Source: Favolaschia claudopus (taxonomy: Eukaryota > Basidiomycota > Agaricomycetes > Agaricales > Mycenaceae). Taken from it: a stretch of 64,000 nt of DNA. Both the position numbers and the translations under genes were made by a program. Location of the stretch: positions 1 to 64,000 of the forward strand of contig JAWWNJ010000073.1 in assembly GCA_037176885.1 (NCBI GenBank), in the 5' to 3' direction. The notes under the pieces are model-generated. The model ran no database searches and had not been told where the DNA came from. It was given only the letters and a program-made list of their open reading frames with translations. Below are positions 21,881-40,449 of this stretch, piece by piece (the stretch's first letter is position 1; every line of letters starts with the position of its first letter).

Positions 21881-23696
21881 TGAAACGGTGCGTGTAGGTG
21901 TAGGCGTGAAATATACCGAAATATATAATCACAAAATCTAATCCAATACGACGTGTGTGTGTGTGTGTGTTCGGGGTGGCGGGGAGCACGTATCGTCCCT
22001 CAGAATACTTGTGCAAGCTTCAATCAATCAAGGTCGCTACGTTTGAGCGGGACGAACTACTAGATTGTCTAGCGAGAACGTAGCGGGCAAAACGATTCGC
22101 AGCGGGAGAAGCGAAGAGTCACTCTTTCTGAGACTTCGAAATGAGAAATTCTGAGTCTAGCGGGGAGGGTCTCCGTGCCAATAGAAAAGCGTCGCCCGGT
22201 AGTGGATCGTCAACCGGCAAGAAGCTTTCTGGATGACAACCGGCGGGCAGAAGGCGCGGCTCAGCGGGACGGGGTTCTTATACGACTGGCGCGGCTCTGG
22301 CGAGAAGCGGGGCTCTTACGTCGATGGCGCGGACACTAACAGTGACCCGGGCAGTTACACCACTACGCGGCGGCGAGCTCGAACGGGGGTCTTGGTTATA
22401 CCGCGGAACGGCTGGCACACGGGGCGTCGACGGCGCGGAATCAAGCTTCGAACGGGGGTCTTGGTTATACCGCGGAACAGCAAGAAACGGGGCTTCGTAT
22501 TTCAGGAGGGCTCGGGCTCAAAGGCTGGCGGGGCTCTCGAAGTTCTGGCGGCTCGGTATGCCACAAGTCTTTCCGTATCACTCGAGTCTCTCTCAGATAT
22601 CAAGTCTAGTCTCTTTCAAAGTTCAATTCAAATTCTAGAGTCCGCTACAAACTGCCCTTGTCTACGGGTAGGTAATTGACTGAGTAACAAAAAGTACACC
22701 GGGAGATTAAATACATGCAGCGGGAGCAGAAACAACCAAATAAAATCATGATGAGAGAGTGTCCAAGTTTGATGCCGCGCCCGCTGGGAACCAATGGTAT
22801 ATTCAGGATTGCGAGTCGTGAGTGAAAAGACTGCCTCCCGGAGAAAGTCCATGCGGGGCGGGTGGGTATTGCGCCTTATTGCAGTGCAATGGCGTGCTGG
22901 TTGCCATGTCCCCGGGAGGGGACACGAAATTCTTCCTTCATAATATGGTCTTGCCGCTGGTCGAGTTGAAGTCGAAAAGGCTTCCCGCTGAGTAGTTAGT
23001 CAACGGCTCGACAGCGGTCAAGTTCGTCTCGTCTTCTATCTTCAGAACCGTCTAAGTTCCAGGGAAAATAGGGAGAGCCGAGTCGCGTTAGCGGCTCGCC
23101 ACTCGCCGTTCGAGTTGTCCGCAATCAGCGGGAAATGCCCCCGGCAACTCGCCATGTCCTTCTCATCATTCTGACAGAGCCGTTGGCTGGATAGCCGCTG
23201 GCTCCGCGGTGCTCCCGCTGGCAGTCGGTTAAGTCCCGCTGTCCGTAATCAGCCGCGTGCTCTGGTAGAGCCTGCCGGTGATCCTGTTCGTCGGTAGAGT
23301 GGTGGCCGTCCTGAGTTCGAAGTTGAACTCAGTATGGTCCCCCGCTAGATCTTCTTCATGTTGGTCGGCGGGTGAGCGCCTAAACCTCAGGGAGGTTGGT
23401 AGTTCCTCTTAGTCGCCTTCAGCACCTTGAGATAGTAGTTTCCCACTAAGTCTCTTGGCCCGGCAGTTTAGAAATAGTCAGCGGCAGAGTCTCGCACCCA
23501 TGTTTAGGGAAACGTCGCTAAGCCGCTGCTACCCCGTTGGTGTCCCACCAGCTTGTCGGCTATCCACAGCAATAAGATACTGCCCGCGAGGACGGGGCAT
23601 ATCTTCTAGTATCCTAGCCTCACTTCTCCCGCTGATAGGTCTCGAAAATCGATAAATTCCGGGCATTTCATGCCTAGCCGCTGAGCGGCCCTATCA
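21881..23696 (-). repeat. LTR2 (shared middle LTR)
   Basis: A 1,816 bp LTR serving as 5' LTR of the left unit and 3' LTR of the right unit. It joins directly to PBS-side sequence on its left (21,880) and to the polypurine tract on its right (23,697), with no target duplication on either side. Confidence 0.95.
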
Positions 23697-23710
23697 TCTC
23701 CCCCCTTTCT
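23697..23710 (-). other. Polypurine tract, right unit
   Basis: Minus strand AGAAAGGGGGGAGA abutting the 3' LTR (TGATAGGG...). The left unit has two extra G in the same run, a homopolymer difference typical of this pair of copies. Confidence 0.92.
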
Positions 23711-24391
23711 AGATTTCAACTCTCCCGAGTTGACGACTTGAGATCGCCCGCTAGAGATCTTATCCATCTTCCCGGGGAAGGGGACTTCAAGACAAAACTT
23801 CTGTCTTGGAATAATTTTTAGATAACGAACGGGCCGCCAGTGAGGCCCGGTCCCCCGCTCGTCCCCTTTGGTATTTCATGAGAGAAAACCTTAACGAAGG
23901 ACTCGTGGCGACCTATTTTTAGATCCCACTCTACCTCCGTTGACAGTTTCTGGACTCAACTCCTCGCCGCGGCCGGCGATGCCGTCACTTTCATTATGAG
24001 GCCGTCATTCCTGCCTTTTTCGGAAGTACATCAAATTAGAGAAGCGCTCGAATCAAACTCTAACCCTGCGCTCTCTAAAGCGTCCTATTCATCCGCAGTT
24101 TGGAATGTTTGGGATCAAAGAAGCCGCGGGGACCCCCCGCTTCCTCATTCAAATGTTTTTCTCGGAAATTTTCTCGAGAATCCCATCAGACATTCAAACT
24201 CCGACTCCTCAGGGTATAAAGAGTCGAGAGGTTTCTGGGTGGATTCCCCACCGATTCCCCCGATTGGGTACCCCCCCTTGCCCTCTCTTCCCTTCATTTA
24301 TTCTTTCTGTCTTTCGCCCGCCGACTGGATTTCTGGCGCCTTGCACCGGGGAGCTCCTTCTTTGATTATTTCGTGACGCTACATCCACGGA
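23711..24391 (+). promoter_or_regulatory. Promoter/leader of cargo gene A
   Basis: The 680 bp between the polypurine tract and cargo gene A carries a TATAAAG at 24,215-24,221, about 170 bp before the start codon, with pyrimidine-rich sequence downstream (24,280-24,320). This would drive transcription away from the 3' LTR and against gag-pol. An open frame in this stretch changes length between copies and is not counted as a gene. Confidence 0.5.
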
Positions 24392-27300
24392 ATGTCCTCC
24401 AAACCCAGCGGCGGTTCTGCCTCTCGCCCTGAATCTCGCTCTTCTCGTCGCGCCCCGGCAGCTTCGTCTCCACCGCCCGCTTCCTCGAAAACAGCTTTCT
24501 GGACCTGGTCAGCCGCCCGCCGCTTCGTCTTCGAAGGCAGCCAAGCTCCCCCACCGCCGCTGGAGTCTTCGAGTGTCGACTGGTTCTCCGTGTGGCGCGA
24601 CAAGCCGGAGGAGTGGAAGACTCTGCAGGAGTTGCTCGTCCCGTCGAAACTCGCGAACTATTCTCAAGCGGGGGTCGGCAAGATGTTGCGTGCCATTCAA
24701 GAGCCGCTGGTGAGTTTCCACCGTTCAGCTATTCTTTCAGTTTTTAATTTCTTTCTAGAGAGAGCACCGGGCGATCTTGGGGGTTGCGCAAAAAAGGCCT
24801 CGAGCCACCCCCGATGGCCCTCGCCATCAGCGTTCACCTCCAGAAGGCTATCCAGACGTACGACCCGGACGAACACCTGCCCGACGTTCAGGCCCTCCGC
24901 TATCGCAAGACTGAGCTCAAGCAAAAGAAGGTGCGGTCCCGCCAATATGGCCTCTTGGTCGCACCCCCGCTGAACGTTTATTCAGCTATACCTGCCCCCG
25001 GTCCCGTCCAAGACCATGGAAGCTTTTCCCATACCGCCGCCGCCGACGACTCAGTTCTTCGTCGACCGAAAGACCAAAGCCGCCCAGGTGAGTTTTTGTT
25101 AACATTTTTCTCTCCCGGGCCACTCTGACTAGACGCTCTTTTAGTCTGCGTCTTCATCTGGCAAAGTTAGCGGCAAGGCCGCGACGGCCCCCAGCGACTC
25201 TGGAAAAGTCAGCGGCAAAGCCGCCACCGCGGCCGCTGAGTCGGGAAAAGTCAGCGGAAAGGCCCTCCGCTAAGGTCAGTGACCATCGCCGCCGACTTAT
25301 TTCCCTTTCTGTATTCTTTCCTATAGGGAGAGGAGACGCCCCGCCCCAAGAAGCTCCCGGATTTCAAAAAGACGGTAAGCCCTTCCTTCTAATTCATTCT
25401 TAATTCTCCCGGCTGATTGATCTTTATTTAGACCACCGCCTCCACCACCGACAAGCCAAAGGCCCGAGCGGGTCAAGGTAGTCACCAAGACCATCAAGGT
25501 CCCCGCCGACACCCCAGCCGCCAGTGGCAGCGGCACCAAGCGTAAGGCCTCGGGCGGCGCCGAGTCGTCTCCCTCAAAGAAGGTGAAGGAGGACAAGGCG
25601 GCCAAGGTTAAAGCGGCTAAGGCCCCCTCCCGTAGTCAGGTAGTTGTCGCCCGCTGCTGTCCCCAATGTAAGGCCGACATAGAATTAACAATAAACTTCT
25701 CGTAGTCCGTTATTAGTGTCCAAAGCTCCGGCGACGAGCGCGTTCCCGTCCCTGACTTCGAAATTTGTGAGTCGAAGCCGCCTCCCGCTTTAGACATTCT
25801 TATGCTGAAATCTTTCTTAGTGATAGAGGACCAAGCCGCCCGCTGCTCGAAAGAGCAAGAAGACCAAGCCCGCCACCGTCGACACGGTGCCTTCTCTCAA
25901 AGGGTTGGGCACCCCGCGCCGCCCAAATCGCTGCCTTGGAGGGCGTTGGTATCAAGCCAGCCAAGCCGGTGAGTTGTTATCAGCGGGGGATTCATCCACT
26001 AACATTTTCGCTCCAGCTCCCCGAGCAGCCATCCGGTCAATGGAGCCGACCAAGAAGAAGAACAAGCCTCGCCCCGAGGGCGAGTTCAAGGTGCCGAACA
26101 AGGATGTCGTGAACAAGCTGTTCACCAACTATCCTCAAGCCGCCCGCCGCCAGGACCTCCCGTACGACGCCGAGAGGGAGCAGTTCGCCTTGGCCGCCCC
26201 AAGCCTCATCGGCAACCTCGAGCTGAACGTCGCCAATGTAAGGCGGTTTCTTTCTCCTTTTCTTATCTTTCTCACTTTTTCTATCTAGAACGGCCCCCGC
26301 TGCTTGCGGTGTATTGCCTGCGGTAGCAAGTGCGAGTCTACCGGCGTCCCTGGCGAGGTGCACGGCCTGCGCCAGCCGCAAGTCCACTAAGGACTGTACT
26401 TTCCTCCTCGACGGCGAAAAGCTCAGCTCCATGGGCTCCGGGTTGAAGCAGTGGGTCTCGATGACCCGGCCCGGTAAGTCAACCACTACTTTCCTGTTTG
26501 GGCCTGCTGACCATTTCAACAGAGTGGTTCGACTTGAACGCAGATGTCAACGCCGCCGCCGCCACCTGCTTCGCTATGCAAGAAGCCTTCGAAAAGGCGC
26601 GCTGGAATCTGAACCAGAAGTCCTTCAAGATGCTTCTCTCGGTCTTGGTCACCCGCCGGGAGATCCAGCGGGAGGACTTCATCAAACGCTTCGCCGGCGA
26701 GACCCCCGAGGAGCAAGAGAAGAATATGGACCAGGTCTTGCGCATCGCTATGACCCAGGGGCTGACCGCTACGTCGACGATCCGGTCGAACCGCTGCTGG
26801 CAGTATTACCCTTCCGAGGTCATCGACGAAGTCCCCATCCCCGGCTTCACGGACGCCTACGCCTTCTACGAAGCCAAGGACCGCCAGGACCAAAATGTCC
26901 CGCTCGCCTTCTACCTCATCCCGGCCGAGCCTGAGCTCTCAACGCCAACACAGTGGGTCGAAGTACAGGTAAGTCTCTTTCTTTCCTTACATCATTTTCC
27001 TGGGCCGCTGACCCTCCTTTTTCCATAGCCGGAGGACTGCGTGGACCTCTTCCACGACTTGAAGGGCGAGGACGACGCCGAAGAAATCCCTGACGGCTCG
27101 AAGGTCCGTCGACGCCTCTTCACGGACGGCAAGGGCCCGGTCAATCTCGACCCGAACGACGAGGACGGCAACGCCTTGCCCTACAGCTGGGAGCACAAGA
27201 GCGTCCCCGGCTTCTTCAAGATGCTGTACCGCAAGGGTACCTTCTTCGAGATCCCCGACCCGCCGCCACCAGAGCCGAAGCGCAAAGGCAAGTCCAGCGG

Positions 27301-27860
27301 GAAGGTGAAATCATCTTCCGTGGTTCACGACGACGCCGACGACGAGTTCAAACCCGACCCGACTTCCCAAGAGGAAGACATGGGCGAGGCCCCGGACGAC
27401 CGTACGTCGAATTTTTACTTCTTCGTTCTAAATTCCTTGCTAAAGTCAACTTTCCCCGCTAGCCATGGACATCTCTCGCCCGCCGACTCCTGAAAAACGC
27501 CCGAAGGGCAAACAGCGGGCAGTCGATCCGCCCATCCCTTCGTCTAGCGATGAAGAGGAAGGAGAGTCCGGCGAGGTGGGTGCACCCGCTTTCGACGACT
27601 TCTTAGCTGAGTCGTTTGCACAGGACGAGTCCAGCGGCGAGGAGTCCAGCGAGGCCGAGGTACGCGGCAGCGTCCAGGGTGAAGCCGACGAGGAAGACGA
27701 CAGCGACCTCGAGGAAGTCCAAATCCCCGGGACTGCCGATTTCGCAGCCAGCGGCGAGGAGGACCTTGGGCCAGAAGACGATGCAGTGGGCGAGGAAGAT
27801 GTGGATGTCCATCTTCCCGATCATCCTGCTCCTTCGGGCGACGACGCGGTCGAGAGCTGA
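24392..27860 (+). CDS. Cargo gene A: ~935-aa Cys6-cluster protein
   Basis: Antisense gene of the right unit with about 13 exons: 24,392-24,709; ~24,759-24,930; 24,986-25,087; 25,145-25,274; 25,327-25,374; 25,432-25,639; 25,706-25,766; 25,821-25,968; 26,017-26,237; 26,289-26,473; 26,523-26,968; 27,029-27,401; 27,463-27,860. All introns are GT-AG, about 48-65 bp. The N-terminal third is basic and rich in Lys, Ala, Pro and Ser with a repeated SGKVSGKA motif. Exon 10 encodes CLRC-x6-C-x8-CTAC-x8-C, the Zn(II)2Cys6 spacing. The C-terminal 130 residues are strongly acidic. Basic arm, cysteine cluster and acidic tail would suit a DNA-binding regulator, but no family match can be claimed. An extra G near 26,357 falls inside the cluster exon, and homopolymers near 24,776 and 25,263 also disturb the frame; the other copy lacks the 26,357 insertion. 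Confidence 0.7.
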
Positions 27861-28639
27861 GCGGGTAAGCACGCTCCCCCTTTCTGGAGTCTTATCTCCC
27901 CGCTGACCACTTTGCAGCCTTTCCTCGTGGGTGGGCGGGCGGCAAGTAAGCAATTCGCCCGACCTCCCGCTGCCTTTGACTTCTTGCTGACTTCTTTCTA
28001 GAAATTTTTCTGTATTCCTAATCGCGGGGGCCGAGCGGCCCCCAATTTCATCAAAAGCTACGGGTACGGGTCCCATAATCCCGCTAGATGCGAAGGGTCT
28101 GGCCTGGTGGAATTCCACCCGCCATGACCCACCAATTAAAAATGAATTACCCCATAGTAGCATAGCATCGTGTACCGGCCAAAGAGCCGATGAAGCGCAA
28201 AAATAAAACTTTTTACGATGCTCCTTTTCATGTGTGAATTAACTTCTAAGTTCTGAGTTCCAAAGTCAGAGTCCCCGGCTAGATCTTCGTTTGTAAGAGT
28301 CTGAAGCGAGGGAATCTGGCTAAGTGCTGCGCCCGTCGGCTGAGTACGACTTAGAGAGCGAGCTGAACGTTGAACTTCTCGAGTTTTCAACATGCCGAGC
28401 GGCAACGGCGCTTATCACCGGGGTCATCAGATACCGGGGATTGCCCGTGGTACTTCTTCTGGTTGTCAGCGGCTGTCCTCGGACTCCACCGGGTGACTAG
28501 TTCCCCATTTCTCCCGCTGGTCTCGTAAGAGCGATAACGTAGAGTAGGACTGACCCGGCGGCCCGAGCCGCCCGCTACCGTACTTGTATAGTTGATAGGG
28601 GTAGATAGCCAAATCAAGTCATCTTTTCTTTCCATTGTC
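27861..28639. other. Intergenic between cargo genes A and B
   Basis: No gene supported. It contains a GC-rich hairpin at 28,026-28,043 and several AGCGGG/CCCGCT hexamers. The last ~250 bp is presumably the promoter of gene B; I see no clear TATA box. Confidence 0.5.
28026..28043 (+). other. GC hairpin GGGGGCC-gagc-GGCCCCC
   Basis: Perfect 7 bp stem with a 4-base loop, about 165 bp after the stop of cargo gene A and present in both units. It could mark the 3' end of gene A or stall the opposing genomic transcript; neither is shown. Confidence 0.55.
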
Positions 28640-29382
28640 ATGCCGCAGCCCGTAGGTGCAGTCTTAATCGACTACCATTTCTTCCCGGCGGTTAGTCAAG
28701 ACTTTGTGCGCAAGATCTATACCGTGGTAGGCTGCCCTCAACACATTTCTGCGCCAAGTCCAACCAGCCGCTAGCCGAATCTCGTCTGCACGCCTTGTAG
28801 TGACGCCGGCGAAGATTGTGAATTTCTTCACTGGGGCTCGAAGTGCACTCGGTGCCGGGAGTCGAAGGTCCCCAAATGCTTGTTCGTCGGGGAGGATTGG
28901 TTCAAGTATACCTATCCCTCCTCAACCTTTCCGACACTTTTCATCTATCGCAGCGGTAAGTCCTGCCGCTCTTCGAATTCTCATCTTTCTTATTCTATTC
29001 AGGCGGCACGATGTACGACCTTGCATTCCTCGAACTCTGGTACCACTTGCGCCTCGGCGGCTTAAGCCCCGATATGTTTATAGGCTCGGTGGACGGTGAG
29101 CCCGCTGACTTCTTGCGTCGGCGGGAGGAATTTGCTGGCGACCTTCGTGACTGGGACATTGCTCACGACCTAAACCACGCCGCTCACTCCAGCCGGCGGC
29201 TGTATTTCTACAACATCCTGTCTCGAGTTTTACGCGAGTGGCGTACCCAAGATCGCTCGATCCATGCCCAGTGCGACGTCGACGCGGCTATCCTGCTCCA
29301 TGATATCAGGCGACGGGACTCTAATGTTCTGACCGTCGTGCCCTTGGCCCAAGGCACGCGCCGCCAGACCTTCGAGCGGTAA
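28640..29382 (+). CDS. Cargo gene B: 215-aa Cys6-cluster protein
   Basis: Three exons, 28,640-28,726, 28,775-28,955 and 29,003-29,382, joined by GT-AG introns of 48 and 47 bp, give 215 residues with consistent phase. The first intron ends ...CCGCTAG and contains the only stop in the frame. Exon 2 encodes CTPC-x6-C-x8-CTRC-x7-C (residues about 33-60), with a conserved Trp before the fourth cysteine (EFLHWGSKC). The same Cys-Glu-Phe...Trp-Gly pattern recurs in gene D, so B and D are homologous. The rest is helical and charged with no recognised domain. It is antisense to gag-pol, collinear with genes A, C, D and E, and about 170 bp before gene C. Function unknown; a metal-binding nucleic-acid-interacting protein is likely. 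Confidence 0.78.
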
Positions 29383-29554
29383 CCCAGGCTAGTAGCTTTT
29401 CCCCGTTAGGGTCAAATAAATCTCTTTGCCCGGTCGCAAGCCGTTATCGTGATGTCTGATTCCTTCTGAGCTTTTGGTCCGGCAGCCGGTGGTATTCACC
29501 CGTCGGCTATAGGTTTTACTTATAGCGGCCGGTGCCCAGTGAGTCCTTCGAGCG

Positions 29555-30226
29555 ATGCCCGCCTTTTCTTTGGCAGCGACTTTTTACTCAGAACGCTTTA
29601 GGAGCTTCACCGGTCCCTCAGAGTACCAGCTCGTACTTCAAGCTCAATTTGTGGGTCTTTCGTTCTTTCTCAGTGTTCTCCCGCTGACGGTTGCCTCTTC
29701 TTAGCCGGAGTACGAATGCCAGTGCTGCCTCAAGAACTACCGCCATTGCATCTGGATCCAGTGGGGTGAAGCCTGCCTCAGCTGCATGTTCATAGGCCGC
29801 GCCGCCTTGTGCTGCTACACCAAGAAGTCCGTCTGGCAGGCCGAGAACAGCCGTCGTCGCGACACTCTCCTAGCCTCTCGGCCAGGTAAGTCTGCTTTCT
29901 ATCTTTATACCGCTCAGCGGGGGTCTTAGTGAATTCTAGCTCCCTCCGCCGGACGGATCGCTCAGTTTGACTGGTACGCCCGGGCTGCCGGTGCCCGGCT
30001 CGACGAGAAGAGATACATTGATGTGCGTACTTGCACCATCCTCGCCGCCAGGTCCATGCTCGGCACCCTTGGGTTTGGCCAGCTACGCTTCTTGTACGGA
30101 CTGTGGTTTGACGCGAAGGGGGCGGGCGTACGAAAGGAAATTGTAGATCTCCTCCGGGATAGGTTAGACGCTGTAGCCCTCCAGTCCGGCGCAAGGCTCC
30201 CGCCCGTCATGTTCATCGGGCCGTAA
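29555..30226 (+). CDS. Cargo gene C: 187-aa Cys6-cluster protein
   Basis: Three exons, 29,555-29,650, 29,705-29,885 and 29,940-30,226, with 54 bp GT-AG introns (first donor GTGGGT, second GTAAGT), give 187 residues. Exon 2 encodes the cysteine cluster ECQCC-x6-C-x8-CLSC-x8-C with a Trp-Gly before the fourth ligand (WIQWGEAC), matching genes B and D. Intron positions relative to the cluster are the same as in B and D (one just before it, one about 30-40 residues after), which supports origin by duplication inside the element. The C-terminal exon is mostly helical. No enzyme motif is visible. Confidence 0.78.
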
Positions 30227-30509
30227 GCGTAGTAGGAAATATATTCCCACTGTCAAACGAACTTGCATCTTTAAAACTCTGTTTCAAGCTGCCCGATTAG
30301 GAAGGCTTCCTAGAAACCAAAGCTTCCTCGTGTTTTTGCCCAGCGGGAGCTCAGCACCTCGTTGGATATTCCACATGTATTGCGGATCTTCCGGGAGCAT
30401 CGGGTGCAATGAGTCCCGCTGTCGATCTCTCTGTTTTTGGGTCTCCCGCCAGGTCTCAGAGAGATATTTAAGCTGGCGGGAAGGTCCCATTTGCTTCAGT
30501 CGTCTACTC

Positions 30510-31138
30510 ATGTCTTTGCTGGAACATCCACTCTTCCCGAATGACCCCGTCGGCCCGCTCAGGGAGTACTATGTACGTTCCTGAACATTTTGCCTCGGGT
30601 AATTCCTCATCATTCGGCAGCCTGGCCGGGTATGCTCTGCGTGCCTCAACGCCCGTTCTCATTGCGAGTTTACTGAGTGGGGAGCGCCGTGCACCCGCTG
30701 TTACTTGCTGAAGCACAACTGCTCGTACACCCAGACCGCTGAGCTGGCCGATGAAATTGCTGCCCGCCGGCACCGTTTCAAAGAGGGTCCCGATCGTAAG
30801 TGACGACTTCTTTCTTATCTGTTGCGCCACAACTGATTCCCCGCTCGCTTCTAGCGGCTACGAAGGAACAGCTAGCTGCTTGGGACGTCCTTCATGAGGG
30901 GACCCTGGCGCAGTTCCCATTCTGGCAACAATACCATTCTGTAATCGTCGGGCGGAACGTCGCAGAGGCAGCCCAACGGCTGTCTTTTTACTTCGAGGCC
31001 CGCTTGGTTTTCCATCTTCTTCAGGAGGCCAAAACGGCTAATCTCCCGGCTGCGTATGTTGCTGTTATCCGCGAGCGGTTAGACGTTCTCGCCAATAATC
31101 TTTTCCTGGATCTTCCGGCTAGGATGCGGGCAGTGTAG
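30510..31138 (+). CDS. Cargo gene D: 173-aa Cys6-cluster protein
   Basis: Three exons, 30,510-30,572, 30,621-30,795 and 30,855-31,138, with GT-AG introns of 48 and 59 bp, give 173 residues. Exon 2 encodes CSAC-x6-C-x8-CTRC-x6-C, with EFTEWGAPC matching the EFLHWGSKC of gene B. Exon 3 is a predicted helical region (QLAAWDVLHEG onward). Short introns bracket the cluster exon exactly as in B and C. A TATTTAAG-like sequence lies about 45 bp upstream (near 30,463). The metal-cluster spacing equals that of fungal Zn(II)2Cys6 proteins, but the usual basic residues between ligands 2 and 3 are poor, so DNA binding is inference. Confidence 0.8.
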
Positions 31139-31557
31139 ATACAGGCACATGTACTTTCGGATAGTTCGTTCCGATAACACACGCTCCCGCCCCATGTGAG
31201 GCCTTGGAAACATTTATTTCTTGGTAAAGATGTGCCCGCTGCCCTCAAATGACGTGCTAGGTGACCCACCTCTCCCCCTTTCAGAAATCTCAACTGTCCC
31301 CAGTTGATCGATCAGAGGAAATTCAGGTTCCCCGGCAGCAAATTTTCGTGCCACGGAACGATCGGGTGCGTTTGAAATAATTTTCTGTGCCACCGGCGGG
31401 TGCATCTACCATAAATGGTAATCCAAGTTCGGCCGTTGACCAGATTTCGTCCAAATTATCCTTACGGCGTTAATTACGGCCGCTCGAGTATAAGAAGCAG
31501 CGGGCGGACGGGTATACCCCCAGCCTCGTCTACTGTCTTTACTCTGCTTCCTCCAAA
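31139..31557 (+). promoter_or_regulatory. Promoter region of cargo gene E
   Basis: About 420 bp without a gene. A TATAAG lies at 31,499-31,504, about 55 bp before the ATG of gene E, followed by a pyrimidine-rich stretch (gtctttactctgcttcctcc). An AGCGGG hexamer lies 7 bp after the TATA motif. Confidence 0.5.
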
Positions 31558-32798
31558 ATGTCTCAAAACGATTACAACACCGTCAAAGCCGATTTCCTCA
31601 AGGCTATGGACGTTGCCGCCAACCTCGTCAAGTATTCGCCGCCCGAGTCTCGTAAAAACCAGCTCAAGGACGTCGCCGAGATTCTCGTAAGAGCCGCCGG
31701 CTACATTGACCAGTCTCGTTTTGTTAACATTATTCTTTCGTTTGTAGGCGCGCCTTCCCCCGCTCATGCCTTTCATTTTGGAAGACAAGAGCGCGGTTCT
31801 TCGTGAGGCAATCTTCACCTCGCGTGAATATTACCACTCCTTGTACGACCCGGATGGTAAACGGGACGTGACCTTCCCCGCTGGGTACGATGCCCTGCGG
31901 CGGATCACCAAGGCCATTCACGAAGACCGTTCCAAGAAGGCGATCCCGCCCGTCTCCACCGTTTCTTCTTCCAAGGGGACCCGGGTCGGTTTCACTGACT
32001 TTTATTGCCGTGCTCACCATTGACTCACAACCATCCCCCGCTAGAAGAGTACTCGCGGGCGGTCTCAGGGTGAACCCGAGTCTGAGGACGAGGACGAAGG
32101 CACCGTTCGTGCTCCATCGCCCGCTCTCACCACCATCGGTGCTGACGAGGTTCGTTCTTTCATTTAACAGCTGGCCTGTGTAGAGCTGACGATTGACACT
32201 TCTATCATCGCCGTTGGGTGTTTATTTACCCAGATGCTCGTTGACGATGAGCATGTCCCCGCTCCCAAGGCTCCCCCTACCGGTCCCAAGGCTAAATCAG
32301 CCATGGCGGGCAAGAAGGGTGCGCGCGCTGTAAGTCGCACGTTATTTCCGCTTTAGCTTCTGTCGTTCATTTCAATCTTTCAGCATAGCCCGGCCCCCGC
32401 TAAGAAGGGCAAAGGCAACAAGCGCGCTCGCATCGACAACGTCCCGTTCCACGAGGACTCCTTCCTCACCAACGGTGAGTTTCCCGTCCATTGTCAGTGG
32501 TTTCCCGCTGAATGTTATTACAGCAACGGCTGAGTTTTACGCTTCGGCACCCGCTTCAGGTGCTGTTGTCGATGAGGCCGCTAGCGTCGTCGAGATGGGT
32601 ACCGAGTTCATGAGCAACCACCTTGCCTTGCGCAAGCGGATGTATTTCATCATGGTCGAGCTGGCGGTCATCCACGAGAACCTTCGTAGCTCTCTGGCCC
32701 GGCGCGAGCAGCTCCTCGACGAAGGAGAGAAGATCTCGGCTCGCCTTCGCGACTTCCCCGAGTCCTCCTCTGCCGGCGTCGATGCTCATGTTCCCTGA
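31558..32798 (+). CDS. Cargo gene E: 310-aa basic/coiled protein
   Basis: Six exons, 31,558-31,686, 31,748-31,984, 32,045-32,149, 32,234-32,329, 32,384-32,474 and 32,524-32,798, with GT-AG introns of 49-84 bp; phases agree and give 310 residues. Unlike A-D it lacks the cysteine cluster. An N-terminal helical part is followed by an acidic patch (ESEDEDEG), a Lys/Ala/Pro-rich basic stretch (AKKGKGNKRARI, resembling a nuclear localisation signal) and a C-terminal helix with heptad-like leucines (ENLRSSLARREQLLDEGEKI). It may be a partner of the cluster proteins or a chromatin-binding protein; this is inference. It ends tail-to-tail with pol, 222 bp away. Confidence 0.75.
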
Positions 32799-33020
32799 CT
32801 CGTTCCTAAAGAGCTCCCCCAGCGGGTCCCCCTTTCTTCAGAATCCTCGGTACTGGCTCAATCGTTTCGGACACCTCACGGCTCATCCTTCTGCTGGCCG
32901 CCACACACTCCCCGGGTGCGCAACCTGTTCGCAGCGCACTGGCGGGAGATGCAGACAATACAATTACTCAAGGACTTCGAATCCCGTTTCAAAATGTAAC
33001 GTAGATATCGTAGCAGTAAT

Positions 33021-36000
33021 TCATTTCCGCGCAGCGGCTTTCGTGGCAGAACGAGTCTTCCGTTTGAAAGGCAGCGGCTCATCCGTGTCAGGTTCCTCTT
33101 CCTCTTCTTCTTCCTCGGGCAAGGCCTCCTGCAGAGCCGGCTCTTCGTCAGCCGTCCCGCTGGGGGTTAACCTCACATTCCCGAATTGGAAGTCATCTCC
33201 AGAATAACCGTCTTCCTCCTGGACCATCTTTTCTAGCGTCTCGGCCGAGAGGTCAATTAAGTCGTGAATGTCAGCGGGCAGCTTGATAGAGCGCCGCTGC
33301 TCGAAGGGGACTACCCTGAACTGAGCAATCTTTGATTGAAAGACAGAGCCGTCCATCTCCGCTACGATATAACTTCCACCTTTCGTACGCCGGATGATAA
33401 TTACTGGTCCCAGGTATCTGGCGGCCATCTTCGTATTCAGCGACTTCTCGACGGTCGTATTCCTGATGAGCACCAAGTCTCCCGGCTCGAAATGGTAATC
33501 TTCGATAGTATGTTTATGTGCTATCTCATACCGGCGTAAATTCGCTCGCTTCTCGTCGGTGACCCGCTCCCTCATCTGTTCGACGTGAGTGGCGTGCTTA
33601 GCCAAAGCCTGGGCTCGATAGCCGATTAACTCAGCGGTTGTTAGAGTCCTGCCGGGCAGATGCACTAGCCAAGTCGCTTCTTCTATATCCAGCGGGAGGA
33701 TTGGATGTGCGCCCGTTACCATAAAGTAGGGTGAACAACCCGTTCCTCGTCGAATAGTGACCCGGTCAGCCCACAACATCTGCGGGAAGAACCAGTACCA
33801 CTTGCTGGGATTCCCGCCAGTAGCTTTCCATAAGGATTGCCTCATCGAGAAGTGCCCATTTTCGACTTTCCCGTTGGCTTGAGAATTATACGGCGAAACT
33901 CTAATATTTCTTATGCCGTATTTAGACTCAAGGTAGGCTACGGCCGCTAGGAAGGCCGGCGCATTATCTGTCACCAGTTCCTCCGGGCAACCCCACCTAC
34001 AAATCACATCTTCAAGTAGGAACAAGGCCAGCGTTCTGGCATTCTCGTTCTTTATCGGCCGCGCTTCTATGTAGCTGCTGAGAGAGCAGCGGGCGTCGAC
34101 AACTTTATTGAAGCCGTTGGAAGGAGTGCCAACGACCATCACGTCGACGTGTACCACCTGGAAGAGCGAAGGGGTATGGGTAACAACGGGCGGGATCTTT
34201 AATAAAGTCCTTTGCCTCAATTGACACAATTCGCAAGTCTTAATGTACCAAGTGACATCCCGCTCCATCTCAGGCCACCAGAAGCGCATTTCTATCAAGG
34301 ATTTGGTAGCAAAGACGCCGCGATGAGCTAGGCTATCATGAGCCGCTCGCATCATATACATTCGGTGTTCTTTGTCTACCACCAACTGGTGTGCGCTCCC
34401 CGTTGTGGATTTATGATAGAGTTTTCCATCTGCATCCTCGAAGAAGCCGGTGGCGAATCGCAAGAAAGCTTTGTATTCTTTGTCGTTCATGCCATCCGGG
34501 CGAGCCAGGGTGTTTCGCCGCCATTCCCTCATGAGGAGCAGCCGCTCGTCCGCTAGCTTCGCCGCTACCGATCGTTGGTCTTCAGAATACGGTTCCCGCT
34601 TCGTCGGGTCGTACTTCAATTCGAGGTCAGGGATCAGCGGCTCGCCTGCTGGCTTGTCGTCCCCCTTTGACTGAGAGAAGACTTCGAAAACGTATTCTCT
34701 ACTAAGGCGGGTGTAAGCCCAGGCCTGTTCGGCGTCGTTTTCGAAGTCAGCGGCTGACCGAGCCTCATCTCCTGCCAATTCAGCTACCATATATCCACCT
34801 CGGGTGTCAATATCGTGCTTGAAATCCTCGAAATTCTTGAGAGGCGGCCAAGCACTACTTTCAGGATGAAGACCCGGCGGCTCGTTATTATCGAACTCGT
34901 CTTCTGGATGATCATACTCTGGATCCCCCGGCTGAATACGCCGGCGGGAGAGTCCATCTGGCCCGAAAGTCTTGCCCGGTACATGCTTCAGAGTGAAATG
35001 AAACATTAAGATCTCCTCGATCCAGCGGTTGATCGTAGCGTTGGGTCCCATTCCCGGGTGATCCAACATGCCTTTGAGGTACTGAGCGTCGGTCTCGACG
35101 ACCAGCTTGCGGCAGCCCAACAGCCAATATTGCATGTGGTCTAGCGCCCTCTTCAAGCCAAACAATTCCCGCTTGGGCTGAGAATACCTCGACTCCCGTT
35201 CGTTCAAAGGTATGGAGCTGAAGCGGGCATAGTACCGCTTATTCAGGTCCAAAGGATCCCGCTGGTACACATGCACTCCAACTCCAAGGTACGACGTATC
35301 AACCGCCAGTACCACTTCGGTGTCCCATTCATATCTTATAGGTCTAAGCGCGGGACATTCTCGCAAAGCCTTCTTCAAAACTTTCATGCAGGCGTCTTGG
35401 GGCGGGCCCCACTCGAATATGACTTCTTTCCGGGTGAGCTTCTGAATCGGCTCAGCCTTGACCGTGTAGTCTTGGATGAACATCCTCATAACGCCCACAG
35501 TTCCCAGAAAGGCTTTCACATCGTGGAAATCCTTCAGCGGGCCCCAACGCTCAATGACGCCGATTCTATCCTCATCCGGGCGCATGCCCTCGTATGAGCA
35601 GACATGGCCGACCACCTTAAAGGTTCCCCGGCAAATCTGCAACTTCTTCCCGCTTACAGTCGCCCCAGAATAGGCTAGCCGGGTAAGTACCCGGTTGCAG
35701 TCTACCAAGTGTAACCACACAAAGACCCTTATCAGCGGGTTCTCTGGGATGGTCTCGTACGTCCCGTCAGGCTTCTCATATCGAGTGAAGCCGCCGGCGA
35801 CAGGCACGTCATCTATATACGGCCGGGTAACCGCAGGAATTTCATCTCGCAGGATGTAGGTTACGTCTTCGTGGAAGATCGGCACCGAGTTGGTCCAACC
35901 CTGCGGCAATCTTACCAATCGAAGCGCCCCAAACGGAGTTTGGAAGGTCGTGTAATCTCGAGATTCCGGGTCAATCAGCCGGTGGTTGTACCCAGAATAA

Positions 36001-37109
36001 AGATCAAACGTGGACCCACAAGCCCTTCCTGCGAAATGTTCGGCTAGATCCGCGGCGCCGGGAGGCACCCCAGAGTGCGCAATGGTTACCGCGTTCAGCG
36101 GCTCCAACGAATGCACTAACCGAATTGACTTCTTATCACTCTTCAGAACTCCAAAGTACTTTGTGCGGTACGAGCCGTTAGACGGTTCGTAGATATTGGC
36201 GTCGATACTCGCCCTAAGCACCTTGCAGACTTCTTCCAGCTGCCCCGGCGGGATGGGAATGTTTCTTTCCACCCAGACCTTATGGTCTGCCTTCACCGGG
36301 AACTTGACTGGCGGGAAGAAATCCGTCCTGAAAGTTCCTCGTTCACTGTCATCCCATGCTACCGTATTTTCGTGTATAGATAACATGTGATGAACCAGCT
36401 TCATCTCTTCATCATTCAGGAACCCATCATTATGCAGTTCGTCCACTACCGCTTTCCTTTCCGCTATGTACCTCCCTACGGGAACGAACTCTGGCGGGTG
36501 AGGGTCTAGCGGGACGAGATTCTGCAGCGGATCCCCAATGATATTTCTTTCTATCCTGAACTCGGGAGGGAGCGGCTCGAGGACCGGCTTTACTTTCAGC
36601 GCTACCGGCTTATATTTCTTCGAGAACACCTCCTTCACCTCGACTTCAGGCGGGTGATCCTCGGGAACGATTTCCTCCATCAACACCACTTTCGTTTCGT
36701 TGTGTTCGAACCCGGGCACCACCCAGTCGGCGTAGTCACAGCACTGACAGCGCTCCCCCGCTGAATGCCGAGACCGCTCCTGTTTGAGCGACTCAACATC
36801 GGCACCGGCTGTCATGAACACAGCGGCTGGGTCCTTCAGTTTCTCTCTGACTTTATCCGTTATATTAGCTACGATGGCTACATAGGATTCGCCGACGTTC
36901 TTTCCTTCTGTCAGCTGCTCATTATATTCCTGAAATAGCTGAGCAGCGGGTTTGTCATCAACTTCTGGCATGGCAGCCGCTAGGTAGGCCATTTTCGTCT
37001 CGGCCATCGAAAACCCCTCTTCTCCAGATTTCATCAAAGCGCAAATTCTAGGAACATTATTCTCGTCCAGTTCTATCTGAACCGCTAACTCTCCTTGATG
37101 GTTAATCAA
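33021..37109 (-). CDS. pol: Pol polyprotein: RT, RNase H, integrase
   Basis: Uninterrupted frame of 1,362 codons. It opens inside the protease ORF and has no ATG at its start, so it is probably made by frameshift from the protease frame. Order: linker (1-260); reverse transcriptase with FDLYSGYNH, LPQGWTNS and RPYIDDVPV; RNase H with AVDTS, KRELF, ETDAQYL and a distal GPDGLSRR; integrase with the H-x4-H...CELC zinc domain, then HVDVMV, TDNAPAF and NGKVENGHF supplying D, D and E; finally a GPY/F-type module (RYLGPVIII). All catalytic residues are present, so this unit could be mobile. It reverse-transcribes and integrates element RNA in the particle and nucleus. Confidence 0.95.
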   Translation of the reverse strand: MINHQGELAVQIELDENNVPRICALMKSGEEGFSMAETKMAYLAAAMPEVDDKPAAQLFQEYNEQLTEGKNVGESYVAIVANITDKVREKLKDPAAVFMTAGADVESLKQERSRHSAGERCQCCDYADWVVPGFEHNETKVVLMEEIVPEDHPPEVEVKEVFSKKYKPVALKVKPVLEPLPPEFRIERNIIGDPLQNLVPLDPHPPEFVPVGRYIAERKAVVDELHNDGFLNDEEMKLVHHMLSIHENTVAWDDSERGTFRTDFFPPVKFPVKADHKVWVERNIPIPPGQLEEVCKVLRASIDANIYEPSNGSYRTKYFGVLKSDKKSIRLVHSLEPLNAVTIAHSGVPPGAADLAEHFAGRACGSTFDLYSGYNHRLIDPESRDYTTFQTPFGALRLVRLPQGWTNSVPIFHEDVTYILRDEIPAVTRPYIDDVPVAGGFTRYEKPDGTYETIPENPLIRVFVWLHLVDCNRVLTRLAYSGATVSGKKLQICRGTFKVVGHVCSYEGMRPDEDRIGVIERWGPLKDFHDVKAFLGTVGVMRMFIQDYTVKAEPIQKLTRKEVIFEWGPPQDACMKVLKKALRECPALRPIRYEWDTEVVLAVDTSYLGVGVHVYQRDPLDLNKRYYARFSSIPLNERESRYSQPKRELFGLKRALDHMQYWLLGCRKLVVETDAQYLKGMLDHPGMGPNATINRWIEEILMFHFTLKHVPGKTFGPDGLSRRRIQPGDPEYDHPEDEFDNNEPPGLHPESSAWPPLKNFEDFKHDIDTRGGYMVAELAGDEARSAADFENDAEQAWAYTRLSREYVFEVFSQSKGDDKPAGEPLIPDLELKYDPTKREPYSEDQRSVAAKLADERLLLMREWRRNTLARPDGMNDKEYKAFLRFATGFFEDADGKLYHKSTTGSAHQLVVDKEHRMYMMRAAHDSLAHRGVFATKSLIEMRFWWPEMERDVTWYIKTCELCQLRQRTLLKIPPVVTHTPSLFQVVHVDVMVVGTPSNGFNKVVDARCSLSSYIEARPIKNENARTLALFLLEDVICRWGCPEELVTDNAPAFLAAVAYLESKYGIRNIRVSPYNSQANGKVENGHFSMRQSLWKATGGNPSKWYWFFPQMLWADRVTIRRGTGCSPYFMVTGAHPILPLDIEEATWLVHLPGRTLTTAELIGYRAQALAKHATHVEQMRERVTDEKRANLRRYEIAHKHTIEDYHFEPGDLVLIRNTTVEKSLNTKMAARYLGPVIIIRRTKGGSYIVAEMDGSVFQSKIAQFRVVPFEQRRSIKLPADIHDLIDLSAETLEKMVQEEDGYSGDDFQFGNVRLTPSGTADEEPALQEALPEEEEEEEEPDTDEPLPFKRKTRSATKAAARK

Positions 37110-38269
37110 CTCCTCGAATTCTGAAAATTTTGTTCCTCTTCGCCGCTCGCCGGCGCAGCCGGTGGCGCATCGTTTTGTACGCGCCGCACCTGCCGCCGCT
37201 GACCTCTGGGGAAGGTAGGGACGACCACCCGCTTCGAAGTGGAGGGGTCGGTCAGAGTCAGGAACTGGTTCCCGTCAGAAGTATTTTTGATACCGCTGGC
37301 GGTCAGAATTTCGAAGGGCCGCCCCAGCAGCACTTTGTAGGCCGGGTTCCGTATAACATGCACTTGTAGGTACACTGTCATATCGCCGAACCTGAAGGGG
37401 ACGTTCCTCGCTAACCCGACTGACTTTTCGGTTTGCCCGTTGGCGCTCATCATGTGGATACAGTTATCCGGGTCCCAACTGACTCCCAGCTCGGTGGCTA
37501 CCGACAGGGCCATGGACACTATCTGTGATCCACCATCCAGAATGCATTCGACTTCGGCGGCTCCATGAATGAGCGGGAAGACCACTCTCAGGGCCGCTGA
37601 TTCTCCAGCAGAAGCTTCGGAGATCGCGACGAAGATTTCTCTCACCGGCTCACCATCGGCTACCGACTGCCAATATTGCACTGCCGGGTCGACAGTGATG
37701 AGAGCTCCCGCTGGCATGAGTCCATCGGCCACAGTTGAGACCTGAACTAATGCTTCGTAAGGGAGGTCCTCCAAGGCTACGCTGGAGGACTCATCATCTT
37801 CGTCGGCTTCTTTCTCTGCGTGGCTAATCAATTGCTCGAGGGTGACTCGAACAGCGGGCGAGACTCTCTTCTTCGAGAGCAACGCCTTAGCCTGACGCAG
37901 CAACTTCGGGCTGAGAGCGAACAGCCTCCCCAGCGGGAGTGCTATTTCCAGGCTTCCAAAGATCTCCTTTATCAAGGATTCGACCTCCTCATCTTCCTGG
38001 TCCTCTACTGGCGCCTTCAACTCGTAGTTCTTTTCGTTGGCCGCCGCCTGCGGATTTCCCGCCGGCCGAACTCTAGGTTCGTTGGGCCTTTTAGCTGGCT
38101 TGACCGGGGGAACGTTCCTATACGGAAGTTCCGGCGGCTGAGTGCCATTTTGTTCTTCTGTCTCCTCCCGCTCCTTTTCCTTGGTCTCCACGATCGCCGG
38201 CTGTGCTTCGACAGCGGGCTTTCGTATCGTCCTCGGTTTATAGGGCAACTTCGGCATCACAACTTCCAT
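37106..38269 (-). CDS. Retropepsin-like protease ORF, 387 aa
   Basis: ATG at 38,269 and stop TGA at 37,108-37,106, overlapping the start of the pol frame. The N-terminal 90 residues are Pro/Lys/Glu-rich, followed by a helical region and then an aspartic protease domain with ILDGGSQIVSM (Asp of the active site, D-G-G in place of the usual D-S/T-G) and a downstream LLGRPF, both typical of agaricomycete gypsy proteases. It would cleave Gag and Pol. The frame is also open upstream of the ATG to the end of gag in the -1 phase relative to gag, so it may be made as a Gag fusion. The protease/pol overlap contains AAAATTTT; see that entry. Confidence 0.9.
   Translation of the reverse strand: MEVVMPKLPYKPRTIRKPAVEAQPAIVETKEKEREETEEQNGTQPPELPYRNVPPVKPAKRPNEPRVRPAGNPQAAANEKNYELKAPVEDQEDEEVESLIKEIFGSLEIALPLGRLFALSPKLLRQAKALLSKKRVSPAVRVTLEQLISHAEKEADEDDESSSVALEDLPYEALVQVSTVADGLMPAGALITVDPAVQYWQSVADGEPVREIFVAISEASAGESAALRVVFPLIHGAAEVECILDGGSQIVSMALSVATELGVSWDPDNCIHMMSANGQTEKSVGLARNVPFRFGDMTVYLQVHVIRNPAYKVLLGRPFEILTASGIKNTSDGNQFLTLTDPSTSKRVVVPTFPRGQRRQVRRVQNDAPPAAPASGEEEQNFQNSRS
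37124..37131 (-). promoter_or_regulatory. Putative -1 frameshift site A AAU UUU
   Basis: In the protease frame the minus strand reads CAA AAT TTT CAG, a heptamer of the X XXY YYZ type, 16-23 bases before the protease stop. A -1 slip places ribosomes in an open frame that continues without a stop into pol. The left unit has one T fewer in this run. The alternative is that the true run is one T longer, which would fuse the two frames directly. Confidence 0.5.
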
Positions 38270-38355
38270 TTTCTTTCCTGCGGGCGGGCGTGCTTGTCGG
38301 TTCTCCGGGGGCTTATCCGCAGTGGGTTTCCCCTTGGCCCCCTTCCTCGAACTCT

Positions 38356-39909
38356 CTAAAAATGCTCACCTTCGACGCTGTTCCCCGTTCGGGAAGGACC
38401 AGCCCCGTTGGAAGAGCGAGAGTTCGCTGAGACAGCCGCCAGCAGAATCGCAACAGCGTTGGCGTCGAATTGCGGCGGGGGAGATTGGCTTTGATGAGCC
38501 ACAAGGGGTGGTTGAACACCCCCTGATCCATGCGACTGGAGTTGCGTCACTTGCCGCTGGAGGTTTACTTGCTCAGCTCGCAAGGAAACCAATTCTTCTT
38601 CTCTCGGGTCATAGTAGAATTCCTCGTTCTGGCTGAACGCGGCTTGCGCGGCTTCCAGCTCCTGCTCGTCCATGTCAAGAACGGAGAGCTGAGCGAAGAC
38701 AGACTGGTAGTTTTGCGCAGCGGCCGTGGGTTGGGCGGCCGGGCGGTACTCCTCTACCTGCTGCTTCTTGGACTTGTGCCCGTCTTTCGGGATTGGTATC
38801 CCATCGGGGAAACAGTCTCTGAACCCTACGACCTTCATCTTTCCACTCCCTATGTGGGCTTGCCGAATGAGACACTTATCTCTAAAATGCCCAAACTTGT
38901 CGCAATAAAGACACCCCTGATCCGCCAGGTTCCCTTTGAATTGCACGGTTGGCATTCGCGGGAAAGACTGGGAGTCAGCGGCGCCTGGGACTCTGCCCGG
39001 TAGGGACTTATAGAAGGACTCCAACTCGGCCATCCTCTTCTTGGTCGCGGCGTCGATCTCTTTTAATTGGGAGGTCTGGTTATCCAGCCGCTCCATCATA
39101 GTGACGACCGACACCTTAATCGTCTCAAGAAGGGACTTGTTAGGGTCCTCCTCTTCTTTCTTTACCGTCACGTTTGGGTGAGGTAGTATGGACCGCCCGC
39201 TCGACGCCTTTCCGGACCCGCTGGCGTTCTTGGACTTGCTCGAGTATCCCCGGTCAGAGGCGCCAAAGAACTCAGAGTTAGCGGTCGAGCGTTTTGCGAT
39301 CCTTTTAGCTTCGGTCATGACCTCGGCCAGCGTCCATGTGCGGACCTCTGGCTCGTCAGCATCATCCCCGGCAGCGGGAGGTTTCCGCTCGAGGTTCTCC
39401 AGAATCCGTTCCTTGAACTCAGGACTCAACTTGGAGAAGAACATCGGGAGAGCCTCCCGGTGCGAAATTAATTTCGAATCGAGAAGCTTGTTCGCCTCGA
39501 CGTTCATGACGCGCATTAGGCGCATGAGTTCGTCTTCATCGTCCCGGTCGATCCCCTCTTCCGTGAACTTACGAAGCTGCCGGTGCAATTTCTGCACAGA
39601 GCCCTTCTTTTGGTCGACTACGGACGGGTAATTTTCCAGGATTTCTTTCTTAAAGTCGTCGAACTTCTTAGAATACGAGGCGAATTGCCGCCACTCCTCG
39701 GCGGTTGCCTGAGCAGTATAGCGGCAGACAAACTCGTTCTTCTTGTCATCCGGCGTCTCATCTAATTCCATCATACGCTCCACATGGTCCAGGAAACGAA
39801 CGAGTTCCTCCGGCTCTTCCTCTTTGAAGAGCGGGGCGTTCCTGTCCCATGGTTCCGGCGCGCGCTTCTTTCCTCGAACGACAGGGTTGTTGTTGCCGTC
39901 GTCAGCCAT
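38356..39909 (-). CDS. gag: Gag polyprotein, intact copy
   Basis: ATG (MADDGNNNP) at 39,909-39,907, stop TAG at 38,358-38,356; 517 residues. The open frame extends upstream to 40,287, but only from a TTG, so the ATG is preferred. A retrotransposon Gag-like helical domain (about residues 30-190, with AEEWRQFASYSKKFDDFK) is followed by a low-complexity linker, a coiled segment and one CCHC zinc knuckle CLYCDKFGHFRDKC. It forms the particle and binds element RNA. The last codons are CAT TTT TAG; a -1 slip on the T-run leads into a frame open through the protease ORF. Confidence 0.92.
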   Translation of the reverse strand: MADDGNNNPVVRGKKRAPEPWDRNAPLFKEEEPEELVRFLDHVERMMELDETPDDKKNEFVCRYTAQATAEEWRQFASYSKKFDDFKKEILENYPSVVDQKKGSVQKLHRQLRKFTEEGIDRDDEDELMRLMRVMNVEANKLLDSKLISHREALPMFFSKLSPEFKERILENLERKPPAAGDDADEPEVRTWTLAEVMTEAKRIAKRSTANSEFFGASDRGYSSKSKNASGSGKASSGRSILPHPNVTVKKEEEDPNKSLLETIKVSVVTMMERLDNQTSQLKEIDAATKKRMAELESFYKSLPGRVPGAADSQSFPRMPTVQFKGNLADQGCLYCDKFGHFRDKCLIRQAHIGSGKMKVVGFRDCFPDGIPIPKDGHKSKKQQVEEYRPAAQPTAAAQNYQSVFAQLSVLDMDEQELEAAQAAFSQNEEFYYDPREEELVSLRAEQVNLQRQVTQLQSHGSGGVQPPLVAHQSQSPPPQFDANAVAILLAAVSANSRSSNGAGPSRTGNSVEGEHF

Positions 39910-40429
39910 CGGATTGTTTGAAGGGGTTGGTGAAGTGTTGAGTAGTGGTGAAGAGACAGACGAAAGAGTCGTTGACGACTGGGTAGCTGCACCGTCGGGC
40001 GTAACAGGTCTTGTGCCGGGCGGTTGAGTTGAGGTTTGTTGTTCCAGCGGAGCAGAGGGGCTCAACGACTGGGTTTGGCGGGTACGATAAGCGTGAGCTT
40101 GGGTTCGTCCGCGCAGAGAATAGAGTTCCCGGGCAAGAGCAACAGGCGGGCGGGAAGGATCGTCAGTCTCGAGCTCGAGAGCAGCGGCAGCGGCGCGTAG
40201 GCTAGTGTTGGTTGACCGAGGTTTTGGTGGTGGTGCTCTAGCGGATCGTCCTTCTGAAGCCACGTCTCTTCCGAAACTAAATGGCAAAATCTTCTATAGC
40301 GGGCCTGGAGCTATCGGCTCAACGGGCGGGTGTATATTCTATTCTCGAGTCAACCGGCGGATGGTTCGTGCTAGGTTATAGCAGCGTCCACAAGTGATAT
40401 CTTTCGACTTGACACAAATAATCTGTCAC
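39910..40429 (-). other. gag leader of right unit
   Basis: About 520 bp between the primer-binding site and the gag ATG. It is an in-frame, ATG-less open extension of gag (Pro/Ser/Thr-rich when translated). It is conserved in all three copies, so either the leader is structurally constrained or gag starts at a non-ATG codon. Confidence 0.45.
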
Positions 40430-40447
40430 CCCTCGCGGTGGGCTCCA
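40430..40447 (-). other. Primer-binding site, right unit
   Basis: Minus strand TGGAGCCCACCGCGAGGG, two bases from the end of the 5' LTR. The implied primer tRNA ends ...GGTGGGC-T-CCA. A T at position 73 is typical of eukaryotic tRNA-Cys, so tRNA-Cys is my tentative guess. Confidence 0.8.
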
Positions 40448-40449
40448 GA

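Follow-up and report, generated by a model that had tools for sequence, protein, structure and literature searches.

We analyzed a 64,000-bp stretch of the Favolaschia claudopus genome (positions 1 to 64,000 of contig JAWWNJ010000073.1; referred to here as the window), in which a gypsy-type retrotransposon encodes gag and pol on one strand and a set of spliced genes on the other. The element forms a tandem array (positions 3265 to 42264) with the order long terminal repeat (LTR)-internal-LTR-internal-LTR. It is about 18.6 kb in length, with gag, protease (PR), and pol on the minus strand and five intron-containing plus-strand genes (A to E) between pol and the 3′ LTR (Table 1). Given the orientation of gag-pol, the five genes are antisense to the element, as a first-pass annotation of this DNA had stated.

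Architecture of the element and its antisense genes

The element possesses LTRs, gag, a protease, and reverse transcriptase (RT)-RNase H preceding integrase, and is thus a Ty3/gypsy-type LTR retrotransposon. Directly after the 5′ LTR of copy 2 is a TGG-starting sequence that resembles a primer-binding site. The gag open reading frame (ORF) has three relatives in the protein database (43 to 44% identity), and two Pfam models scored just under their cut-offs (RVT_1, 27.9 versus 29.6 bits; gag-asp_proteas, 25.7 versus 28.2 bits). No relative of pol or gag was found among viral contigs and none of gag among genome contigs, and the Rfam scan gave no match.

Table 1. Features of the retrotransposon array (aa, amino acids)
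Feature	Positions	Strand	Remarks
LTRs of the array	3265-5087, 21881-23698, 40450-42264		Self-BLAST
5′ LTR, copy 2	40450-42264	-	About 1.8 kb; starts TGATAGGG; self-BLAST, edges inspected
gag ORF	38356-40293	-	645 aa; ORF called by position and relatives
Aspartyl protease ORF	37106-38365	-	Pfam Asp_protease_2 over cut-off
RT-RNase H-integrase ORF	33021-37274	-	1417 aa; Pfam Integrase_H2C2 and RT_RNaseH over cut-off
Gene E	31558-32800	+	310 aa; six-exon splice model: 31558-31686, 31748-31984, 32045-32149, 32234-32329, 32384-32474, 32524-32800
Gene D	30510-31140	+	173 aa; exons 30510-30572, 30621-30795 (cluster), 30855-31140
Gene C	29555-30227	+	187 aa; exons 29555-29650, 29705-29885 (cluster), 29940-30227
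Gene B	28640-29382	+	215 aa; exons 28640-28726, 28775-28955 (cluster), 29003-29382
Gene A	24392-27860	+	Hypervariable; start provisional, taken from the initial sequence reading
Gene A exons, copy 2	26289-26473 (cluster), 26523-26968, 27029-about 27401	+	5′ exons provisional
Gene A cluster exon, copy 1	7675-7858	+	Open in frame; CLRCIACGSKCESTGVPGECTACASRKSTKDC
3′ LTR, copy 2 (= 5′ LTR, copy 1)	21881-23698	-	Densest in AGCGG; self-BLAST
Unique 3′ (U3) block	23030-23357		In the five copies read, varies along with the type of gene A
Element copy	21881-40449		167 AGCGG on both strands (85 CAGCGG, 46 CAGCGGG)
Five-gene block, copy 1	5088-14200	+	Many single-base length differences from copy 2

The two repeats of the array were 99.2% alike over 20.5 kb in a self-BLAST (24 mismatches and 133 gap openings). 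The differences listed between copies 1 and 2 in the antisense region were mostly single-base length changes, which we read as assembly errors. One such difference breaks the frame of the gene A cluster exon in copy 2.

Genes A to D each encode a six-cysteine cluster (C-x2-C-x6-C-x8-C-x2-C-x6..8-C). A six-frame scan of the window matched this pattern six times, always on the plus strand (A, C, and D of copy 1; B, C, and D of copy 2), whereas 40 order-1 Markov sequences as long as the window gave no match. In B, C, and D, a Trp-Gly precedes the fourth cysteine, and the layout is the same (i.e., short exon 1, phase-0 intron, cluster exon, phase-1 intron, and exon 3); the cluster exon of gene A has the same phases. 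These results confirmed the cluster, the Trp-Gly, and the common intron positions described in the first-pass annotation. Gene E has neither a cysteine cluster nor a Pfam match. Gene A has a single relative in the protein database, P0004, a hypothetical protein of F. claudopus; judged against the DNA of another copy (C211), P0004 joins the residues flanking both introns and is an independent spliced annotation. No homologue of B, C, or D was found in the protein database at an E value of 0.01.

Constraint across genomic copies and diversity of gene A

The source genome comprises 264.57 Mb in 460 contigs, and most of its Zn_clus genes are present in repeated copies; the published assembly has a size of 265 Mbp, and 86.8% of its BUSCO genes are duplicated (PMC10905254). 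In the match counts below, haplotypes count as separate copies, and fragments of decayed copies also contribute. For the D cluster exon, the best 150 of 420 candidates were scored, 63 of them being 100% identical over the full exon; for the B exon, the best 150 of 338 candidates were scored; and for P0003, a relative of gag, the best 83 of 572 were scored, with the window gag ORF among them. Matches to P0003 were mostly in two forms, i.e., 645-aa and 642-aa gag frames, the latter represented by C211.

The ratios of nonsynonymous to synonymous divergence (dN/dS; Nei-Gojobori method) between the window and C211 were 0.14 for B, 0.15 for C, 0.14 for D, and 0.10 for E, and those between the window and copy C66 were 0.19 for B, 0.15 for C, and 0.13 for D. 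The B to E frames in the compared copies are thus under purifying selection (dN/dS, 0.10 to 0.19). Across 30 rows (the window plus 29 copies, with L013 dropped), the pooled ratio of polymorphisms (pN/pS) was 0.11 for C and for D, and no cysteine was among the changed residues. With L013 again dropped, cysteine codons were kept in 45 of 45 (C), 41 of 41 (D), and 14 to 15 of 15 to 16 (B) readable copies. Most readable copies had GT-AG splice sites; the second donor of C was GC in 7, and the first intron of B showed splice-site exceptions in 4 of 16 rows, poorly aligned rows among them. The called frame exhibited a strong synonymous bias. A lack of constraint on the cluster exons in other copies had been named beforehand as a finding that would count against the first-pass annotation; the exons proved to be constrained.

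Among 12 divergent copies picked, B, C, and D were all intact in 3, and the other 9 contained indels or stops, perhaps partly because of assembly error. The most diverged copy (C35) had higher ratios (0.23 to 0.37 versus the window) and a stop in C. Its B-D block (L059; C35:169031-171850) had a dS of about 0.26 to 0.42 versus the window. The 8 kb of this copy expected to contain gag-pol yielded none, and the C27 stretch held 1.7 kb of gag-pol. At positions 28640 to 31140 in L064, the B-D introns and spacers differed from C211 at 43 of 762 sites; this divergence is below the synonymous level (dS, 0.12 to 0.32), which may indicate noncoding constraint.

Two explanations that deny the genes a role fare poorly against these data. 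Chance ORFs on the complementary strand, which the indels or stops in some copies would fit, are scarcely credible: the random-sequence scan and the synonymous bias contradict them, and a spliced homologue has been annotated. It is also very improbable that the genes are passengers, i.e., zinc-cluster genes that the element took from the host on one occasion and that have no function for it. Retroelements are known to capture genes (PMC7264820), but the dN/dS values contradict this explanation, and the cysteines and splice sites are conserved and the genes are present across copies.

Gene A differs from its neighbors in its variability. In C211, a 4.2-kb block with gene A was mostly unalignable to the window as DNA, whereas elsewhere the two copies were 93% (gag-pol) and 94% (first 1.15 kb of the LTR) identical; over the cluster exon and the third exon, their A proteins shared 36 to 37% identity. 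Identities of the third exon among the matches listed fell into groups of about 88 to 100%, 76 to 81%, 51%, 45 to 48%, and 35 to 41%, plus fragments. Copies with an identical D exon encoded A proteins that were only 35 to 51% identical; for example, A was at 51% in C115, 46% in C70, 39% in C12, and 36% in C82, yet the D exon was 100% identical in each. Copy C2, which has the 642-aa gag, also contained type-1 A (92%), and type-4 A occurred on both gag backgrounds (C12 and C82; C211). Gene A has thus been reassorted against the backbone. The adjoining U3 block exists in different versions as well, one shared by the window, C115, and C17 and another by C12 and C211. The six-cysteine spacing was kept in all five A clusters, and dN/dS was low within A lineages (C115-C17, 0.10; C211-C12, 0.04), with high synonymous change. 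We read gene A as old, constrained, and diversified rather than decayed.

An enriched motif and its candidate readers

The element is rich in the pentamer AGCGG and its extensions. Under a trinucleotide Markov model, the 18,569-bp element copy was expected to contain, on both strands, 62.3 AGCGG (167 observed), 15.1 CAGCGG (85), and 4.0 CAGCGGG (46), the last being an eleven-fold excess. The AGCGG sites (73 on one strand and 94 on the other) lie along the whole element and are densest in the LTR, with no obvious preference in spacing. A single change inside AGCGG left an excess of at most about 3-fold (CGGCGGG, 16 versus 6.0; CAGTGGG, 6 versus 1.9), while an altered first base or a final C retained more (CAGCGGC, 29 versus 4.4). 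Six 5-kb background stretches had 2.2 AGCGG per kb and one CAGCGGG in 30 kb, and the 21-kb flank had two CAGCGGG. The motif is thus enriched in the element's own copies relative to the genomic background, as in the VANC systems, in which VANDAL21 copies are enriched for YAGTATTAY and the density of this motif is important for where VANC21 localizes (Hosaka et al. 2017, PMC5735166).

When the protein and the codon usage were kept constant, gag-PR-pol contained 65 AGCGG versus 25.1 expected, a count reached by 0 of 2,000 shuffles, and AGCGG was its top 5-mer. CGG itself (340 versus 349) and AAGCGG (7 versus 5.2) showed no excess. In two host F-box ORFs, AGCGG was outside the top ten 5-mers (highest z, 3.6). 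Enrichment was also observed in the gag-pol of C211 (52 versus 21.6) and in the nonalignable A blocks (window, 38 versus 15.0; C211, 24 versus 12.9). The synonymous shuffles ruled out a codon-usage or protein effect in gag-pol; such an effect may still apply in the plus-strand exons. An effect of intron branch sites (CCGCTGAC) was rejected because it leaves the gag-pol and minus-strand sites unaccounted for.

Zn2Cys6 proteins read CGG-containing DNA, typically through basic residues in the first loop, and their cysteine spacing ranges over C-x2-C-x6-C-x5..12-C-x2-C-x6..8-C. The spacing in A to D falls inside this range. A comparison of a low-confidence model of the D cluster exon (predicted local distance difference test [pLDDT], 65) with the PDB gave 13 matches, 12 of which were Zn2Cys6 domains; the model resembles GAL4, PPR1, LEU3, HAP1, and LAC9. 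The D exon sequence itself had one irrelevant match only among PDB sequences. When the D exon was searched against the whole genome, its matches included a B exon from one copy (46% over 37 aa; E = 8.7e-4), which fits duplication, and a profile comparison of A with B/C/D was suggestive (hhalign E = 2e-4; probability, 45%). The first-pass proposal of an element-borne set that would have arisen by duplication inside the element is thus partly supported: the Zn2Cys6-like family is under selection, the D-B match fits duplication, and the relationship of A to B, C, and D is only suggestive, with the element as the putative site of the duplications. We infer that A to D are Zn2Cys6-like zinc-cluster proteins, with zinc and DNA binding predicted.

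A CGG-containing tag occurs on both strands over the whole element, which also encodes four conserved Zn2Cys6-like proteins, and the best explanation is that these proteins read it; AlcR-type proteins, which bind single TGCGG sites, offer a precedent. Our preferred reading, which we hold tentatively, is that this gypsy-type element carries its own regulatory or anti-silencing locus, in which A to D would read AGCGG in a VANC-like manner. The zinc-cluster proteins would bind double-stranded DNA, with E as a partner, and the likeliest target would be the AGCGG (best, YAGCGGG) accumulated over the element. They might thereby coat or activate the DNA of their own family, drive or derepress LTR transcription, and shield that family against silencing by the host, as VANC does for VANDAL. 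Gene A and the adjoining U3 block would be a hypervariable cassette swapped between element lineages, possibly the part that is in conflict with the host or that sets lineage identity. The binding of DNA and zinc, the link between protein and motif, and the activation or anti-silencing are all inferred from the features above. A bolder version, which we consider doubtful, is sequence-specific retrotransposon self-recognition by several proteins: a duplicated zinc-cluster set would read a 5- to 7-bp tag that selection placed on both strands of the element, in coding as well as noncoding DNA, and A and U3 would be exchanged under balancing or arms-race selection, making the system an independent counterpart of VANC. 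VANDAL elements are not LTR retrotransposons.

Several observations weigh against A to D as readers of AGCGG. Regarding the proteins, no cluster reached the Pfam Zn_clus (PF00172) gathering cut-off of 21 bits (D, 14.1 bits, E = 0.053; four of five gene A clusters matched below the threshold, best E = 0.046, one of them with 13.7 bits; B and C, no match), and the Zn(II)2Cys6-type cluster noted in the first pass is upheld by the spacing and not by the profile. The confidence of the D model is low, the model of the gene A cluster (pLDDT, 45.7) was too poor for use, the C2-C3 loop of B is acidic (SDAGED) and lacks the typical basic residues, and the halves of the gene A cluster match LAC9 weakly and in swapped order, which does not suit a plain Zn2Cys6 domain. 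Between A types, the dN/dS of the cluster exon was 0.30 to 0.75 with saturated dS, and further A exons gave 0.57 to 1.08 versus C211 in DNA alignments that are unreliable; the joint change of A and U3, which are neighbors and were compared in five copies only, may result from linkage alone. Regarding the motif, the coding exons of B, C, and D plus part of A had no significant AGCGG excess (14 versus 10.3; 103 of 1,000 shuffles), and AGCGG sites were not preferentially conserved between subfamilies at 7% divergence (45 of 59 versus 488 of 689 comparable 5-mers; P = 0.45). Other G+C-rich words were also raised in gag-pol, to a lesser degree (CTGGCGG, 8 versus 2.3; GGCGGG, 15 versus 7.0). A 2-kb gypsy-like pol piece had 5 AGCGG versus 2.6 and 4 CAGCGG versus 0.9 (2 of 1,000 shuffles), and a second 2-kb piece showed no excess (8 versus 8.2), both being small samples. 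Finally, the A types read share the motif despite their high divergence, so A need not be the motif reader.

Part of this evidence would fit real zinc-cluster accessory proteins that target host genes, hijacking promoters that contain CGG sites, or act as partners of Gag or integrase, the motif having another cause. The selection data are independent of the motif, the tested plus-strand exons lack a significant motif excess, and the B loop is weakly basic, all of which would suit such proteins; the coexistence of an element-wide, double-stranded, CGG-containing motif with proteins resembling CGG binders speaks against them, and we consider this explanation unlikely. Slightly less probable still is that a host factor (silencing or activating) reads the motif, or that a mutational or copying bias produced it, the antisense genes serving another step of the life cycle. 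The even spread of the motif, its presence in both sampled gag subfamilies and in all five A-plus-LTR stretches regardless of A type, and the CAGCGG excess in one of the two other pol pieces would be expected from such a cause, but CGG and AAGCGG are unraised in gag-pol, and sites are scarce in the host background and in the flank.

Comparison with known systems

Coding sequence antisense to gag-pol lies between pol and the 3′ LTR, probably in most copies, which is the arrangement of aORF-3R in plant LTR retrotransposons (Grande gene23, RIRE2, Retand, and PvRetro13); in many of those elements, all or most copies have it (PMC7264820). Their function is unknown, and the antisense product of Grande is nuclear (PMC7264820). 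As described there, plant aORF-3R consists of one antisense coding region for which no clear relatives among proteins are given (PMC7264820), unlike the present set of five spliced genes, of which four encode a zinc cluster, and the element-wide motif; the words "zinc" and "fungi" are absent from the text of that article.

The likeness to VANC lies in element-encoded proteins combined with a short motif that is far more frequent in copies of the element itself; for VANC, motif density has been proposed as the key to specificity, and proteins and targets diversify (PMC5735166). VANDAL motifs are mainly in noncoding tandem repeats and in one orientation (PMC5735166), whereas the present motif occupies both strands and also occurs in coding gag-pol. 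No zinc cluster is described for VANC in the portions of the source available (PMC5735166). Binding by VANC and loss of methylation have been demonstrated (PMC5735166); the corresponding activities are predicted for the present system. A 42-bp tandem repeat in gene A (positions 25157 to 25264) contains CAGCGG and recalls the motif-bearing tandem repeats of VANDAL.

Fungal DNA transposons encode TET/JBP dioxygenases, another case of fungal mobile elements with genes thought to counter hypermutation or silencing; these are enzymes and belong to DNA transposons, unlike the present genes (PMC12730594). The antisense proteins are like GAL4-type Zn2Cys6 factors (PF00172) in their cysteine spacing and, tentatively, in the low-confidence model of the D exon, and the motif contains CGG; they differ in their sub-cut-off scores, the small size of B to D (173 to 215 aa), the acidic B loop, and the possibly swapped halves of A. 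Element-encoded transcription regulators, some of them antisense, include HBZ of human T-cell leukemia virus (HTLV), Tat, and Tas of foamy viruses; in contrast to the present genes, these are unrelated proteins, few in number, from animal viruses. Our literature search found no retrotransposon with zinc-cluster antisense genes.

LTR retrotransposons with antisense genes have long been described, the function of these genes being unknown (PMC7264820). Here, a recognizable DNA-binding-like cluster, a candidate motif, and many copies that vary naturally in the fastest gene make function directly testable. If the preferred reading is true, retrotransposons independently acquired self-tagging by motif accumulation together with self-encoded readers, and anti-silencing would count as a general strategy, which may bear on the large size of Mycenaceae genomes. 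CpG depletion, considered as a sign of methylation, was not seen in the element relative to the flank (observed/expected, 1.04 to 1.10 and 1.03 to 1.16, respectively) and was uninformative.

As to the surroundings of the array, CCGA is present at both of its outer ends, possibly as a 4-bp target duplication. Positions 1 to 3264 belong to another, incompletely contained insertion of this element family (gag side plus 5′ LTR), 43 bp from the array; its 5′ LTR (1730 to 3221) has an internal deletion of about 324 bp, and mismatches with the array are about 1%. On the other side, the array adjoins a duplicated piece of an F-box gene: positions 42263 to 42954 and 53387 to 54083 are 95% identical, and the second piece lies within an F-box ORF (52554 to 54164). 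A 207-bp tandem repeat in two copies occupies positions 44706 to 45116, and a plus-strand ORF at 61668 to 62537 encodes an OTT_1508-like deaminase domain.

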